Assembly (NCBI GenBank): GCA_009995045.1
Contig: JAACQG010000015.1
Coordinates: 43,674-107,673, forward strand
From: Alphaproteobacteria bacterium
Lineage (GTDB): Bacteria > Pseudomonadota > Alphaproteobacteria > Micavibrionales > Micavibrionaceae
Direction: 5' to 3'
DNA length: 64,000 nt
Part shown: piece after piece, positions 4,264-40,390 of the stretch
Numbering within the stretch: the stretch's first letter is position 1
Layout of the letters: every line of letters begins with the position of its first letter
Program-made: the position numbers and the translations under genes
Notes under the pieces: model-generated
The model's input: the letters and a program-made list of their open reading frames with translations, nothing else
Database searches by the model: none
Told to the model about the DNA's origin: nothing

Positions 4264-4279
4264 TGGCACATATCTTGCA
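4264..4279 (+). promoter_or_regulatory. sigma-54 (RpoN) promoter of the lectin-flagellin gene
   Basis: TGGCAC, five bases, TTGCA: the -24 GG and -12 GC are exactly 10 bases apart, and every core base fits the sigma-54 consensus. It ends 37 bp before the flagellin start, a normal leader length. Sigma-54 control of flagellins is well established in Caulobacter and relatives. Confidence 0.85.
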
Positions 4280-4316: not shown

Positions 4317-5681
4317 ATGATTAGCAAATTCGGAAATATTTTATCAGGAACACAAGATGCTATCTTGCAATCCATTAAGCGCACCCAAGGGCTCGTTGAT
4401 AAAGTGCAGCTAACGCTGGCATCCGGTAAGGATGTAAACCGTGCGATTGATAATCCTCAAAATTTCTTCACATCCCGCACTCTCACAAGCGAAGCCGATG
4501 ATTTAAGGGGGCTTTTAGACGGCATCACTACAAGCATCCGCACCATCCAAGAGGCAGATACGGGCGCAAATGCCATCCTACAATTAATCGACCAGGCCGA
4601 TGCCCTATTAGATGAAGCACTTACTGAATTATATTCAGATCCTGAAATCACAAGCCTCGTCGCAGAATTAACACCAGCCGATATCTCGGCAATTTTAGCC
4701 GACAACCCTGGCATTACATACTCCAGCGACAGCGAGAGCTTCTATCAAGTGGTCACGGCGAATGCCAATTGGAATACAGCAAATGCCAACGCGCAAAGCG
4801 CAACATTAATCGAGCCGTCCACCGTATCCGGTGTTGCAGGAGTGACGGGGCATCTCGCTGTTATCACCTCACAAGAAGAAAATGATTATATCAATGCTCT
4901 ATCACCGAACAATACGTGGATCGGTGGAAGCGACCAAACCGTGGAAGGAGAATGGCGCTGGGTTGGAGGCTCTGAAGATGGGCAACAATTCTGGCAAGGC
5001 GGCACAGGGGGCAGCGCAGTAAACGGCGCGTATGAAAACTGGCGCAGCGGTGAGCCAAATAACTCCGGCAACGAAGACGGCGTTCATCTCCGCCCAGACG
5101 GGGCTTGGAATGATCAAGGGGTTGGGTCGAGTTATGATTACGTAATTGAGTGGGACTCAAGCCTTTTCGTCAACGAAGACCACCCAGAACTGGCTGAACG
5201 CGCAAGAGAATACCAAAGCCAGTACCTTGATATCATGGAGCAAATAGACTTTTTGGCAAAAGATACGCAATTTCGCGGTTTGGGCTTATTAAACAGCGAG
5301 CATTTAAGAACTGATTTCAACGTACTGCGCACTAGCACATTAATCAGCGAGGGGATCGACGCAACGTCCTTGGGCTTGGGCCTTGCAAATAATAACTTTT
5401 TAACACTCGCAGGGCTAAGCGCAGCCCGTGAGGAAATCGATATCGCCCGCGAAACGTTGCGCAGCTACGCAGGCTCTCTTCAGGTGGATCTCGGCATCAT
5501 CACCGCTCGTCAAGATTTCACGCAAATCAATATTAACACGCATAGAGCGGGGGCTGATGACCTTGTGGTCGCCGACCAAAACGAAAAAGGAGCAGAGTTG
5601 CTTGCGCTTCAAACGCGACAACAATTACAATTTCAAGCATTAAGCCTATCCAGCGCCGATCCAATCGCCGATCTTTTATAA
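4317..5681 (+). CDS. flagellin with an inserted C-type lectin-like domain
   Basis: A 454-residue protein. Residues 1-115 form a flagellin N-terminal D0/D1 helix pair (ILQSIKRTQGLVDKVQ, LASGKDVNRAIDNPQNFF, heptad hydrophobics). Residues about 300-454 form the flagellin C-terminal helices, ending LSLSSADPIADLL. In place of the usual variable domain sits a C-type-lectin-like fold at about residues 140-285: GHLAVITSQEENDYI, WIGGSDQTVEGEWRW, the EPN calcium/mannose-type motif at 246-248 and the WND motif at 264-266, then YVIEW. No cysteines are needed for the fold in bacterial versions. A sigma-54 promoter lies upstream. No other flagellar gene is adjacent, so this is an orphan filament gene. The start codon has only a weak ribosome site (GGTAAG). 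Confidence 0.88.
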   Translation: MISKFGNILSGTQDAILQSIKRTQGLVDKVQLTLASGKDVNRAIDNPQNFFTSRTLTSEADDLRGLLDGITTSIRTIQEADTGANAILQLIDQADALLDEALTELYSDPEITSLVAELTPADISAILADNPGITYSSDSESFYQVVTANANWNTANANAQSATLIEPSTVSGVAGVTGHLAVITSQEENDYINALSPNNTWIGGSDQTVEGEWRWVGGSEDGQQFWQGGTGGSAVNGAYENWRSGEPNNSGNEDGVHLRPDGAWNDQGVGSSYDYVIEWDSSLFVNEDHPELAERAREYQSQYLDIMEQIDFLAKDTQFRGLGLLNSEHLRTDFNVLRTSTLISEGIDATSLGLGLANNNFLTLAGLSAAREEIDIARETLRSYAGSLQVDLGIITARQDFTQININTHRAGADDLVVADQNEKGAELLALQTRQQLQFQALSLSSADPIADLL

Positions 5682-5773
5682 AAATCTCCACACAATTGTA
5701 CTCAAGCCACCAAAAACTATAATATTAAGAATTATCACATATGATACAATCAAGACGAGTTAAGGGAGCTTTG

Positions 5774-6181
5774 ATGGCGAAAGTAATAAAAAACGAAGAC
5801 GATCAAAATTATAAAGTACTTTTGGTCGAGGACGAAGCCGCCGACGTTATTTTAGGGAAAAACCGTATATTGGATATATGGCCCGACGCCACGATTATAT
5901 CCGTCCAATCAATCGGTGAGGCGTACAGCGCATATTCAAAACATAATTTTAATCTCATTCTGTTGGACTTAAACCTCCCTGATGCATATGGCGCAGCCGC
6001 AGTGCAAGAGGTCAGAAGCTTTAACAAGGGGACGCCGATTGTTGTTTTAACGGGAATGGGTACGGACATGACTGTTAACCAGGCAATTAAGCTCGGCGCA
6101 AACCACGTGGTATTGAAATCTCAAATCATGAACGATGATTTCAAAAACATACTAGAGCAACACGTAGTAGAAACATTTTAA
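5774..6181 (+). CDS. single-domain response regulator receiver
   Basis: A 135-residue CheY-like receiver without output domain. The acidic pocket is E19/D20, the phosphoacceptor is Asp65 in LLDLNLPD, with Thr93 (VLTG) and Lys115 (VLKSQ) as switch residues. The LLDLNLPDAYG signature resembles the Rcp1-like receivers that pair with phytochrome-type kinases. The start at 5774 was chosen over an in-frame ATG at 5741 because AAGGGAG sits 5 nt upstream. The histidine kinase follows 72 bp downstream and is the obvious candidate partner (inference from position). Confidence 0.88.
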   Translation: MAKVIKNEDDQNYKVLLVEDEAADVILGKNRILDIWPDATIISVQSIGEAYSAYSKHNFNLILLDLNLPDAYGAAAVQEVRSFNKGTPIVVLTGMGTDMTVNQAIKLGANHVVLKSQIMNDDFKNILEQHVVETF

Positions 6182-6253
6182 TTTCTCTTTCATAATAGCA
6201 TTTAAAGATATAATTGCGCTCATCATCAAATGATGACGATAAGGGGACATTGA

Positions 6254-6979
6254 ATGGCGGCCACGGAAAAGTTAGAAAGCGAAATCGATAATGCGCAGCT
6301 AGTCTTAAATGAATACGCTGATTTCGCGTATACCGTGTCCCATGATTTAAGCGCGCCCCTACGTCATATCAAAGAATTCGCGCGGCTTTTAATCGCATCA
6401 CGCGCAGATCAACTCAACGAAGAAGAACGTGAATACGCAGACTATCTGCAGAAATCCTTAGAACGCGTGGATAAAATGCAACAGGGCTTATTGGCGTTCT
6501 CTCGGGTGAACACGCGCAGCCAGTCCAGCGAAAGCATCAATACAAATGAGCTAATAGCCAATGTACTATGCAGCCTAGAAGGTGAAATCACCGAATTAAA
6601 TCCTTCTATTAACCACGGCGAAATGCCAGAGATTTATGGCGACCCATCACAAATTCATACTGTATTCTTGAGCATAATTGATAACGCCATAAAATTTCAT
6701 AAAGAGGGAAGCGCGCGCGAAATATCAATAGATGCAAAAAGCAAAAGCGACAAAGTTATATTCACAATCCGCGACAATGGCATCGGCATGCAGGAAAAAT
6801 TTTGCACGGAAGTATTTCGCATGTTTCGAATGCTCCACCCTGCCGGTAAATTCGCAGGACATGGCGTAGGGTTAACACTCGCTAAAAAAATCATTGAACG
6901 CCACGGCGGAGAAATTAACATTAAATCAAGCCCTAATGAATGGACTGAGGTTACGTTCTCTCTGCCGCAAAAGCCTTAG
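6254..6979 (+). CDS. sensor-less histidine kinase (HisKA + HATPase_c)
   Basis: A 241-residue kinase core only. The H-box has His30 in YTVSHDLSAPLRHI, the N-box has Asn144 in IIDNAIKFH, G1 is DNGIGM (174-179) and G2 is GHGVGL (202-207). The H-box style and the short, membrane-free N-terminus match phytochrome-type and cyanobacterial soluble kinases, but there is no PAS, GAF or transmembrane sensor. It must therefore receive its signal through a partner protein or act as a phosphotransfer hub. It lies between receivers at 5774 and 7141 on the same strand. Confidence 0.88.
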   Translation: MAATEKLESEIDNAQLVLNEYADFAYTVSHDLSAPLRHIKEFARLLIASRADQLNEEEREYADYLQKSLERVDKMQQGLLAFSRVNTRSQSSESINTNELIANVLCSLEGEITELNPSINHGEMPEIYGDPSQIHTVFLSIIDNAIKFHKEGSAREISIDAKSKSDKVIFTIRDNGIGMQEKFCTEVFRMFRMLHPAGKFAGHGVGLTLAKKIIERHGGEINIKSSPNEWTEVTFSLPQKP

Positions 6980-7140
6980 TCAGAGCCTGCATACAAAATA
7001 TAAATCTCTGGCGACTTTTCAAAAACGCACATAAAATAAAACTATAAACACACAGATATTATCTATGTGCTCTGCATAAATGCGTAAAAAAATCGGAACA
7101 TGATCCGAACAAAAAAAACTTGCTTTATGGGGGAATAAAT

Positions 7141-8100
7141 ATGGGCAATCTTACTATTTTACATGTTGAAGATGACGCAACAGACGCGGTCATCTTTAAA
7201 GAAGCTTTAAGCCGCAATGCTGGAAGCAAAGAGGTTTTCGCTATCACTCGTGTTGAAACTATGGGCGCCGCCATTAAGGAAGTCTATAGCAACGAATACA
7301 GCGCCGTATTGCTTGATCTCAACCTGCCGGATTTGCGCGGGATCGATAATGTGAAATGCCTGCGCGCAGAAAACCCGTTAGTGCCAATTGTCGTCCTGAC
7401 AAGCGTAGACAGTGACAATTGGGCCAATGAAGTTCTGGAAGCGGGCGCGCAAGAATACCTCGTAAAAGGTCATTGCACCGGCCAAATATTAAGCCGTGTC
7501 ATACAATCATCAATCAGCCGTAAAAAAATCGAAAACAAATTATTTGAACAAGCCCATTATGATGAATTAACGGGGCTGCCCAATAAATTGTTTTTCCGAG
7601 ACACCCTCAACGCCTCGCTCGCACGCGCTAAAAGAAGAAAAAACCAAGAAGCCTTTTTCTTCATGGATATTGAAAATTTCAAAACCATCAACCGCACATT
7701 TGGCGAAGATCTCGGCAATTGTCTCCTAAAAGAGGTCGCAAAACGTATCAAAGACAATCTTCGGGAATGTGACTTCATCGCGCGCTATGAAGGTGACACA
7801 TTCGCAATCCACCTCGACAATGAAAATGACGAAAAAATCAAAAGCCGCTGTATGCTGGTTGCACAAAAGATACAAAATTTTATGCAAGACCCTTTCGAGC
7901 TTCAAGGCAGCAATATACGCGTATCTGTTAATATCGCCATGGCGCTCTACCCTGAATGCGGGCAGGAGTTTGATCAAATCATGGGCAATGTCGAAGTCGC
8001 GATGCATTTTCTAAAGGTTAATAACAAAACCAAATTCTGCTTCACAAAAAACCTCCATGATCACTTCATGGATAAAGACACAAAAACAGCCAAAAAATAA
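7141..8100 (+). CDS. receiver protein with degenerate GGDEF domain
   Basis: A 319-residue two-domain protein. The receiver (residues 1-125) has the acidic pair E10/D11, phosphoacceptor Asp59 in LLDLNLPD and Lys109. A diguanylate-cyclase fold follows (about residues 138-310: HYDELTGLPNKLFF, MDIENFKTIN). The active-site GGDEF signature is replaced by EGDTF at 217-221, so cyclase activity is unlikely; it may act as a c-di-GMP or GTP sensor or a scaffold. The ATG at 7141 was preferred over a TTG at 7120 because GGGGGA precedes it. A paralogue faces it at 8267-9232. Confidence 0.85.
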   Translation: MGNLTILHVEDDATDAVIFKEALSRNAGSKEVFAITRVETMGAAIKEVYSNEYSAVLLDLNLPDLRGIDNVKCLRAENPLVPIVVLTSVDSDNWANEVLEAGAQEYLVKGHCTGQILSRVIQSSISRKKIENKLFEQAHYDELTGLPNKLFFRDTLNASLARAKRRKNQEAFFFMDIENFKTINRTFGEDLGNCLLKEVAKRIKDNLRECDFIARYEGDTFAIHLDNENDEKIKSRCMLVAQKIQNFMQDPFELQGSNIRVSVNIAMALYPECGQEFDQIMGNVEVAMHFLKVNNKTKFCFTKNLHDHFMDKDTKTAKK

Positions 8101-8266
8101 TGCCATCGAACAAATAAAAAAAAGGGACGCTCTGCTGAAGGTAGAACGCCCCTATAGTTCGGAGTGTGTGCATGGCTAGTAGTAGAAGACTACGCAGTAA
8201 ACGCAATTGATCGGACGTGAGCTTAAAGGAGAAAAGAATCGCCAACCAATCGCGTATTCAAAATAA

Positions 8267-9232
8267 TCATAGATTGGCGCCGCTCGCTGCGCGTGTGCCG
8301 GCTGGCTCAATAAGCTCTTCATTGGCCATACAATATTTCGAATGACCATAACTTGTTGCGATAAACAGGGCATCGTAAGCGCTATCCAAAAGCTCATCGT
8401 AATTCTGACCCGTATCGGGAAACACCGCCGCGCCTATATTGACAGTGACATCAACTGCCCGTCCTTTGATCGAATATTGTGTCGAGCATCGATCAATTAA
8501 TTTTTCGGACAAATCGGAGATACTGCGACCAATGTCATGAAGTGCATTATTATGCACGTAAATCAAAAATTCCCCCTCATTCAGGCTCCCTGCAAATTCC
8601 TCACGCAGCCCTTCACGCATATTCTTGACTGTGCGAATACCAACCTCTCGCGCGACCTCTCTGCCAAATTGGGCGTAGATATTCTTAAAATTCGATATCG
8701 ACATAATCATCATCGCATCCTGATGCCCCCATTCCTCAGCCTTCTTGATAAACGAATTGACCGTCTGGCTTAAAAACACATTATTCGGCAGGCCGGTATT
8801 GTTATCAAATTGCGCCTGATTACGCAGTGCATTTTCAATATTCTGGCGGAAAATCGAGGAGCGAATAATGCGGTTTAAAACATAAGCATTCCCGTATCCC
8901 TTAACGATAAATTCCTGCGCCCCCTCTCGGAGTGCCTCCATCGCCAAACGATCACAATTGGTTGATGTCAGGCATATAATCGGCGTCTGAGGGGCATGTT
9001 TTTTAAAGATTTTCACATTCTTCTCACCCGCCCCCTCCGGCAGATTAAGGTCCAATAAGATCGCATCATAGTGATGCTCCCCAACCATATTCAATCCATC
9101 AATAAGATCGCCCGCATGGTCAATCGTATATTCGTTTTGAAACCCCTTCGTGCTTCTTAATGTCTCCTGAAGGATGGTGACGTCATATGGATCGTCTTCG
9201 ACATAAAGAACCCTTATCGTGTCATTGCTCAT
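8267..9232 (-). CDS. receiver protein with degenerate GGDEF domain (paralogue)
   Basis: A 321-residue protein of the same design as its neighbour at 7141. The receiver has D13/D14 and phosphoacceptor Asp61 (LLDLNLPEG) with Lys111. A linker helix follows (SSIFRQNIENALRNQAQFDNNTGLPNNVF), then a GGDEF-fold domain. The signature is NEGEF at 218-222 and the metal-binding MSISNFKNI segment is also altered, so cyclase activity is unlikely. It is transcribed convergently with the neighbour, 166 bp apart. The two genes are probably products of an old duplication with inversion (inference). AGGGGAGA precedes the ATG. Confidence 0.85.
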   Translation of the reverse strand: MSNDTIRVLYVEDDPYDVTILQETLRSTKGFQNEYTIDHAGDLIDGLNMVGEHHYDAILLDLNLPEGAGEKNVKIFKKHAPQTPIICLTSTNCDRLAMEALREGAQEFIVKGYGNAYVLNRIIRSSIFRQNIENALRNQAQFDNNTGLPNNVFLSQTVNSFIKKAEEWGHQDAMMIMSISNFKNIYAQFGREVAREVGIRTVKNMREGLREEFAGSLNEGEFLIYVHNNALHDIGRSISDLSEKLIDRCSTQYSIKGRAVDVTVNIGAAVFPDTGQNYDELLDSAYDALFIATSYGHSKYCMANEELIEPAGTRAASGANL

Positions 9233-39434: not shown

Positions 39435-40310
39435 TTAACGGAACAATGAGTTTTTCTTATCGCTCTCATTGTTTGAGAACGCATCCATGCCGGGCAGGTC
39501 TAGCTGGCTGAGGATCATAAGTTCAACGGGGGATTGAACAAGCTGAAAATTAGGAAGCGGGGAATAGTAATTCGAAGTGGTGGATTTAAACGCGAGCGAA
39601 TTATGGCGCGCTTCTTGAGTTTTTTGTGCCTCAAGATCAGGCGTATCGGCGGAAATACTCGCCATTTGCGCATCCTTGATCTGTTGGGAATCAATCTCGG
39701 GGATTTGAAATTTCTTATCAAAGAACGCATGAACCTCATCAAGGCTGCGCGCGCGTCCCGTTTTTGTGTCGTAAAACACATTGGGGTTGGCTTTCGCCGC
39801 AGACGGAAATAACACCGCCGCTGGCTTTAGCCCGTTTTCATCACGCGCATTCAAAAACGATGCCGCACCGCCCGCACCCATGAAATGCGCCAGATACAGC
39901 TCGGTCGATCCAATGTCTTTCTCACCCTTCGCCCAATGTGATTCAAGGAAACGCTCATTTTCCGATGCAAACTCCGCCGCCATATTGGACGCAATTTCGG
40001 GGTCTTTGCGTAAATCCAAAATCTCCTGCTTGCTCATCCCCTCTGTGTTGATGCCATGCTTCGCGCCGTATTTATCAACCATGTCCACCCATGTGGATTT
40101 GATGAATTGGAATAGCCCCGTCGCGCTGGAGGAGGAGGCCTTGACGGTGGGGTTAAAGTTGCTCTCTGCCTGCGCTTGTTGCACCAGATAGGCAAAATCA
40201 ACCCCGGTTTTTGCCGATGCATTGCCGATCGCATTCAAAACACCATTGGATGCACCCGATGTAATCGAGGCTAAGCCGCTGTTTTGTATAATATTTGTTA
40301 AATCTTGCAT
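39435..40310 (-). CDS. SLT-domain transglycosylase
   Basis: A 291-residue protein. The SLT domain lies at about residues 35-150: YLVQQAQAESNFNPTVKASS has the catalytic Glu (QAESNF), followed by SSATGLFQFIKSTW and YLAHFMGAGGAASFL. No clear signal peptide is present, which is common in flagellum-associated or type-III-exported muramidases. The C-terminal 110 residues are unstructured and end NNESDKKNSLFR. Possibly a cell-wall opener for flagellum or another envelope machine (inference). Confidence 0.82.
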   Translation of the reverse strand: MQDLTNIIQNSGLASITSGASNGVLNAIGNASAKTGVDFAYLVQQAQAESNFNPTVKASSSSATGLFQFIKSTWVDMVDKYGAKHGINTEGMSKQEILDLRKDPEIASNMAAEFASENERFLESHWAKGEKDIGSTELYLAHFMGAGGAASFLNARDENGLKPAAVLFPSAAKANPNVFYDTKTGRARSLDEVHAFFDKKFQIPEIDSQQIKDAQMASISADTPDLEAQKTQEARHNSLAFKSTTSNYYSPLPNFQLVQSPVELMILSQLDLPGMDAFSNNESDKKNSLFR

Positions 40311-40390
40311 GAGATAATGATCTTACTCTTAAATTATTCTATACTGGTATTTGCAATCAATGTGCCAACTCCGCATATAAGGACAAAATT

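Follow-up and report, generated by a model that had tools for sequence, protein, structure and literature searches.

Introduction

Flagellins that carry a functional domain in their hypervariable region are known, as in flagellinolysin, a metallopeptidase-bearing flagellin (Eckhard et al. 2017, PMC5595980), and other outer domain functions of flagellins have been described (PMC8931119). In 26,587 flagellins the survey of the former study counted 61 families of inserted domains, and the word 'lectin' is absent from its main text. This report concerns a gene at positions 4317–5681 (plus strand) of a Micavibrionaceae contig stretch (JAACQG010000015.1, assembly GCA_009995045.1; the whole 64,000-nucleotide stretch analysed is called the window), whose product is a flagellin with a predicted C-type lectin domain (CTLD) between its terminal helices. 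Like flagellinolysin, this lectin flagellin bears a functional domain in the hypervariable region, where it would be displayed along the filament. The flagellinolysin insert is a protease, whereas that of the lectin flagellin is a lectin-type binding domain matched by Lectin_C, and its translation contains no HExxH motif. Domain-bearing flagellins are thus known, but as far as the published literature could be searched, no description was found of a flagellin bearing a lectin or laminin G domain, or of a lineage set of lectin-type flagellins; an earlier mention is possible. A flagellin survey that required both PF00669 and PF00700 (PMC7018530) would have passed over the lectin flagellin.

Similar binding domains occur on other scaffolds. 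The MAT fibres of Bdellovibrio are chimeric fibres on the predator surface that carry a variety of adhesive tips, of which Bd2740 has a C-type lectin fold, and one MAT member binds prey glycans (Caulton et al. 2024, PMC10769870). The likeness would be one of use and not of scaffold: MAT fibres are trimeric β-helix scaffolds with a C-terminal tip, whereas the CTLD of the lectin flagellin lies inside a flagellin helical core and would be displayed laterally. An RTX protein of Micavibrio aeruginosavorus, GMV2456, has a lectin motif (PMC3189940). It belongs to the same lineage as the lectin flagellin, as do the RTX-type open reading frames (ORFs) L010, L019 and L020 of the family, which likewise bear Pfam Lectin_C, L010 also bearing Laminin_G_3. 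These RTX/CTLD proteins are ~1,000 residues or more in length, and non-flagellin CTLDs keep the calcium ligands less strictly than lectin flagellins. The carbohydrate-recognition domains of animal C-type lectins (ASGR1, MBP-C, CLEC10A and the DC-SIGN family) have the same fold and the same EPN-E-WND site. They contain canonical disulphides, whereas the lectin flagellin, with no cysteine in 454 residues, can form none of these and is not classed with the animal-type domains.

Domain architecture and predicted structure

The sequence-only reading of this DNA had proposed flagellin termini enclosing a domain with EPN, WND, WIGG and YVIEW motifs, and this arrangement is borne out by the motif positions and by matches in Pfam, NCBIfam and the PDB. 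The features are as follows.

4317–5681, plus strand: lectin-flagellin gene, 454 residues, no cysteines
4317–4652, plus strand: N-terminal D0/D1 helices, about residues 1–112 (Pfam Flagellin_N; helices in the model)
4683–5174, plus strand: CTLD, about residues 123–286
4917–4928, plus strand: WIGG, residues 201–204 (W201 in 9/9 flagellin CTLDs)
5052–5060, plus strand: EPN, residues 246–248 (9/9 flagellin CTLDs)
5106–5114, plus strand: WND, residues 264–266 (9/9 flagellin CTLDs)
5184–5678, plus strand: C-terminal D1/D0 helices, residues 290–454 (NCBIfam PRK12688 at 299–446; PDB FljN; filament fold match)
4264–4278, plus strand: putative sigma-54-type (-24/-12) promoter, TGGCAC-N5-TTGC, exact match, 38 bases before the ATG

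The ORF is a single frame from ATG to TAA. Pfam Lectin_C matches residues 177–273 (E = 5.8e-12, 46.7 bits, cut-off 22.6) and Flagellin_N (PF00669) matches residues 15–118 (E = 4.5e-8, 33.7 bits, cut-off 26.6). The NCBIfam flagellin model PRK12688 aligns with its stretch at E = 8e-41, yet below its whole-protein cut-off. Searching the PDB with phmmer returned CLEC4F for residues 177–278 (E = 5e-11) and the FljN flagellin for residues 300–449 (E = 6.4e-7). The C-terminal region was assigned to the D1/D0 helices of flagellin on the basis of PRK12688, FljN and a model helix at residues 364–446, despite the lack of a PF00700 match. WIGG is the counterpart of the WIGL core motif of CTLDs, and YVIEW occupies residues 275–279; we take EPN to provide calcium and sugar ligands, and WND calcium ligands. 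A frame artefact is excluded by the same order of N-terminus, CTLD and C-terminus in eight other family genomes, one of them with a stop.

The structure used is exclusively an alignment-based model, a single-sequence AlphaFold2 prediction having been discarded (predicted local distance difference test, pLDDT, of 37). The model places a confident CTLD at residues ~123–286, flanked by the D0/D1 helices. The 50 Foldseek matches listed are all CTLD-fold entries, and fold comparison gave VIA Z values of up to 19.4. The C-type lectin fold anticipated for the variable domain is thus almost certain as a prediction, and the outcome that the sequence-only reading would have taken as a refutation, a model lacking this fold, did not arise. 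In the same model the whole chain matches the fold of flagellar filament subunits, and the lectin flagellin is very probably such a subunit.

Conservation of the calcium site and of the insert

Residues E246, P247, N248, E253, W264, N265 and D266 are invariant in 9/9 lectin flagellins, so that the ligands of calcium site 2 (EPN, E and WND) are present throughout, the placement of E253 being alignment-dependent in the five members of the subclade that does not include the window gene. Ligand invariance alone is not rare, as 52 of 155 CTLD residues are invariant across all nine proteins. The 20 non-flagellin CTLDs are less strict and keep the five ligands in 70 of 100 cells; CTLDs shorter than 120 residues were excluded from this count and from the 29-row CTLD tree, and the Pfam scan of the underlying ORFs covered four, L010, L019, L020 and L082.

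The insert as a whole is also constrained. Median pairwise identity of ordinary flagellins (n = 37) is 0.29 in the central region versus 0.68 in D0/D1, and the respective values for the lectin flagellins (n = 8) are 0.49 and 0.48. A normally drifting region is therefore conserved here to about the same degree as the filament core. This speaks for a binding function and suggests that the 'hypervariable' region of flagellin can face strong constraint when it bears a real binding domain. Flagellins with the laminin-G and β-rich inserts described below have insert versus D0/D1 medians of 0.44 versus 0.50 and 0.47 versus 0.51, respectively.

The EPN-E-WND calcium site is typical of binders of the mannose/GlcNAc/fucose type. 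Judged from these residues, the CTLD probably binds sugar in a calcium-dependent manner. The part of the sequence-only reading that envisaged a sugar-binding array thus stands as far as the invariant ligands are concerned, and binding itself is a prediction.

Distribution, locus and promoter

The source assembly comprises 1.89 Mb in 32 contigs and is 93.75% complete. A profile of three full-length relatives (E ≤ 1e-60) detected the lectin flagellin in 9 of 105 family genomes and 5 of 39 genera, the source genome included. Flagellins with the same insert are thus present in eight other family genomes. Across 143 genomes of the order, long matches were confined to these nine; the other matches (~1e-50 to 1e-60), likewise restricted to the family, covered flagellin ends or only a CTLD. 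An even sample of the class (385 genomes, in some of which only four candidates were scored) yielded two matches, the source genome and G060, both Micavibrionaceae, and a pattern-based scan of genome contigs gave 61 loci with the fusion in one ORF at eight. The source genome has two Flagellin_N matches and a single Lectin_C match, the lectin flagellin itself. Each of the other eight carriers has FlhA and at least one further Flagellin_N match in a frame of at least 525 residues, which supports the claim that the lectin flagellin is an accessory filament protein.

The gene is alone in its locus and patchily kept in the family. No flagellar cluster was recognised by eye among the listed ORFs of the window. 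Downstream, positions 5741–9232 encode a response regulator, a histidine kinase and a response regulator-GGDEF protein, with a further response-regulator-like ORF seen by eye; these genes are not common to other lectin-flagellin loci. The flanks of the nine loci share two weak matches, one between translation GTPases and one between response regulators.

The sigma-54-type site upstream of the gene reads TGGCACATATCTTGC. Exact matches number 2 in the window versus a mean of 0.28 expected, and 2 were reached in 4 of 100 shuffles. With one mismatch allowed the window holds 8 matches versus 6.75 by chance, which is no enrichment, so weight is given only to the exact match and to the fact that it recurs within the subclade of the window gene. 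All four lectin flagellins of this subclade (the others being L004, L035 and L036) have the site with zero or one mismatch. Among 70 flagellin upstream regions the site was exact in four and had one mismatch in three, these seven being four lectin and three laminin-G flagellins, while 39 of the 70 lacked any GG/GC site; in 7,000 composition shuffles of the upstream regions there was no exact match, and 0.2% had one mismatch. Sigma-54 controls late flagellar genes in alphaproteobacteria, and the site suggests that the lectin flagellin may be controlled together with flagellar genes. The only other exact site in the window lies 42 bases upstream of a 291-residue ORF (39435–40367, minus strand) that resembles the lytic transglycosylase/endolysin gp144 and is possibly a flagellar muramidase.

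Proposed function and alternatives

The explanation that we favour, and regard as probable, is that the protein is an accessory flagellin displaying its lectin domain on the filament, where the CTLD could make the flagellum a sticky, glycan-recognising fibre. It would be exported by the flagellar machinery and assembled into the polar filament together with other flagellins, the usual variable domain being replaced by a predicted CTLD that would point outward. Flagellin assembly involves up to 20,000 copies (PMC7643111), so that a subunit present in small proportion would still be multivalent. The CTLD copies along the filament would together form an array that binds glycans of the EPN (mannose/GlcNAc/fucose) kind multivalently and with calcium, and that has a role in attachment. 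The likeliest targets, in the weakest step of this scheme, may be prey surface polysaccharides, followed by biofilm matrix; prey as the main target is a tentative proposal, somewhat short of evenly balanced. The flagellin core, the CTLD fold, the kept calcium site, the constraint and the promoter-type match are computed, and the structure is real and well supported; the function is what we infer.

The cultured members of the Micavibrio lineage are predators that attach to other bacteria and feed on them. M. aeruginosavorus expresses flagellar genes at high levels in attack phase, and carbohydrate receptors, proposed for Micavibrio in 1986, were reported in its interaction with prey and later questioned (all in or as cited in PMC3189940). 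Little is known of how epibiotic bacterial predators select prey and keep hold of it, and the lectin flagellin is a small, testable candidate that would add glycan recognition to the outer-domain roles of flagellins.

Several observations weigh against this explanation. Predation is a trait of cultured lineage members and an assumption for the source species. Pfam Flagellin_C (PF00700) gave no match up to E = 1 in the lectin flagellin, and both D0 ends of the model are of low confidence (residues 1–7 and 448–454 under 50). The gene has the narrow distribution given above, no convincingly shared neighbour occurs within flanks of up to 6 kb at the nine loci, and the sigma-54-type site is missing in 5/5 lectin flagellins of the other subclade. 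In the G060 copy (L040 = L078:6001-7345) a stop cuts the frame ahead of the long C-terminal helix, with C-terminal sequence in the next ORF; this copy is either a pseudogene or an assembly error. The laminin-G and β inserts fall slightly short of their cores in conservation (the insert equals or exceeds the core in 30/105 and 4/15 pairs, respectively). Finally, searches of the source assembly detected neither FliF nor FlhA nor Flg_bbr_C, the rod/hook domain.

This last absence would be expected if the lectin flagellin were a relic in a lineage without a flagellum, as would the gene order of the source genome, where synteny did not reveal the flagellar cluster: Ffh/RimM is followed by TrmD-RplS (names assigned by eye) and not by the flagellar block found there in the same-genus genome G002. 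We consider a relic the least likely of the alternatives. FlhA is present in 98 of 105 family genomes, the other eight carriers included, both source flagellins are open with the lectin ligands kept, and the source genome encodes a complete MotB (356 residues, L149:628-1698, minus strand) whose ATG is 30 bases short of the contig C32 end, so that a break in the assembly falls right next to a flagellar gene. The flagellar genes of G002 form one block of ~45 kb with other ORFs in between (names assigned by eye), and such a block could sit on a missing contig; the missing genes thus probably reflect an assembly gap. A soluble or matrix adhesin released by way of flagellar export, whether a flagellin-like lectin that is secreted without polymerising or a FlgL-like protein of the cap or junction, would suit the unlinked gene and has a proposed precedent in flagellin-homologous proteins of Vibrio biofilms (PMC6692518). 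The match to the FlgL model TIGR02550 is weak (E = 2.2e-4, 20.7 bits, far under the cut-off of 127.2), whereas the full-length fold and the C-terminal PRK12688 match point to filament subunits, and the D0/D1 tree, which contains no FlgL, places the lectin flagellin beside other insert-bearing flagellins. We therefore regard this possibility as unlikely.

About equally improbable is a CTLD that is mainly structural or protein-binding. Some CTLDs bind neither calcium nor sugar, the antifreeze protein 2zib is among the fold matches, and fold alone defines no function; the calcium-site ligands are nonetheless all kept in the nine flagellin CTLDs and varied in the others. A less remote alternative, although still a minority view, is that the filament binds sugars of self or matrix and not those of prey, so as to bundle with sister flagella that are glycosylated, to autoaggregate or to form biofilm. 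TPR-rich proteins are known in flagellin glycosylation, and TPR-rich ORFs were noted by eye beside the lectin flagellin L074 and the main flagellin of G002; the patchy presence of the gene fits a variable external target better.

Other insert-bearing flagellins of the lineage

The wider set comprises 71 distinct flagellins from loci fetched by several searches, so the numbers given here are counts of this set and not of the family. In Pfam (E up to 0.01) all 71 matched Flagellin_N, 36 matched Flagellin_C, 21 Flagellin_IN, 15 Laminin_G_3 and 9 Lectin_C, and local profiles divided the set into 15 laminin-G, 9 CTLD, 6 common β-type and 41 other flagellins. The 15 have a laminin-G/ConA-like domain in the variable region (L016, L101, L114, L118 and L007 among them). 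The second flagellin of the source genome (436 residues, L001:478-1788, minus strand, contig C32) has the different, β-rich insert common to the six, which gave no Pfam match (L001, L006 and L009 scanned singly) and no PDB sequence match.

A quick tree of D0/D1 was calculated for 66 flagellins after removal of L046 (short) and L029, L040, L119 and L121 (cut or truncated). The 37 ordinary flagellins form one supported clade with the insert-bearing ones outside, among which the branching is unsure. In the free tree the lectin flagellins split into two groups of four, but constraining the eight together raised the likelihood by 15.2 (AU p 0.785). Nor do we claim an exchange of inserts: in the free tree L118 (laminin-G) nests among the β flagellins (95), but the six β rows constrained together score higher by 15.6. 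The insert types require 4 changes on the tree versus a minimum possible of 3, and the tests leave free a single origin on the core for each of the CTLD and β inserts. The nine flagellin CTLDs lie on one side of a branch of the CTLD tree from the 20 others (support 93, not starred).

We tentatively suggest, as a less than even possibility, that in the Micavibrio lineage the flagellum serves to display lectins, with D0/D1 as a platform for at least three kinds of insert (CTLD, laminin-G/ConA-like and β), two of these types occurring also on RTX proteins of the lineage; the lack of support for free exchange of inserts between cores makes this somewhat less likely. If true, the mixture of inserts would determine the prey surfaces to which the attack-phase filament clings, and the flagellum would parallel the MAT repertoire of Bdellovibrio. 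The laminin-G flagellins L084, L087, L104, L105 and L108 lie directly upstream of an ordinary flagellin gene, ending ~160–225 bases from its start. RTX- and cadherin-type ORFs of relatives hold one to three CTLDs, L082 combining cadherin domains with two.
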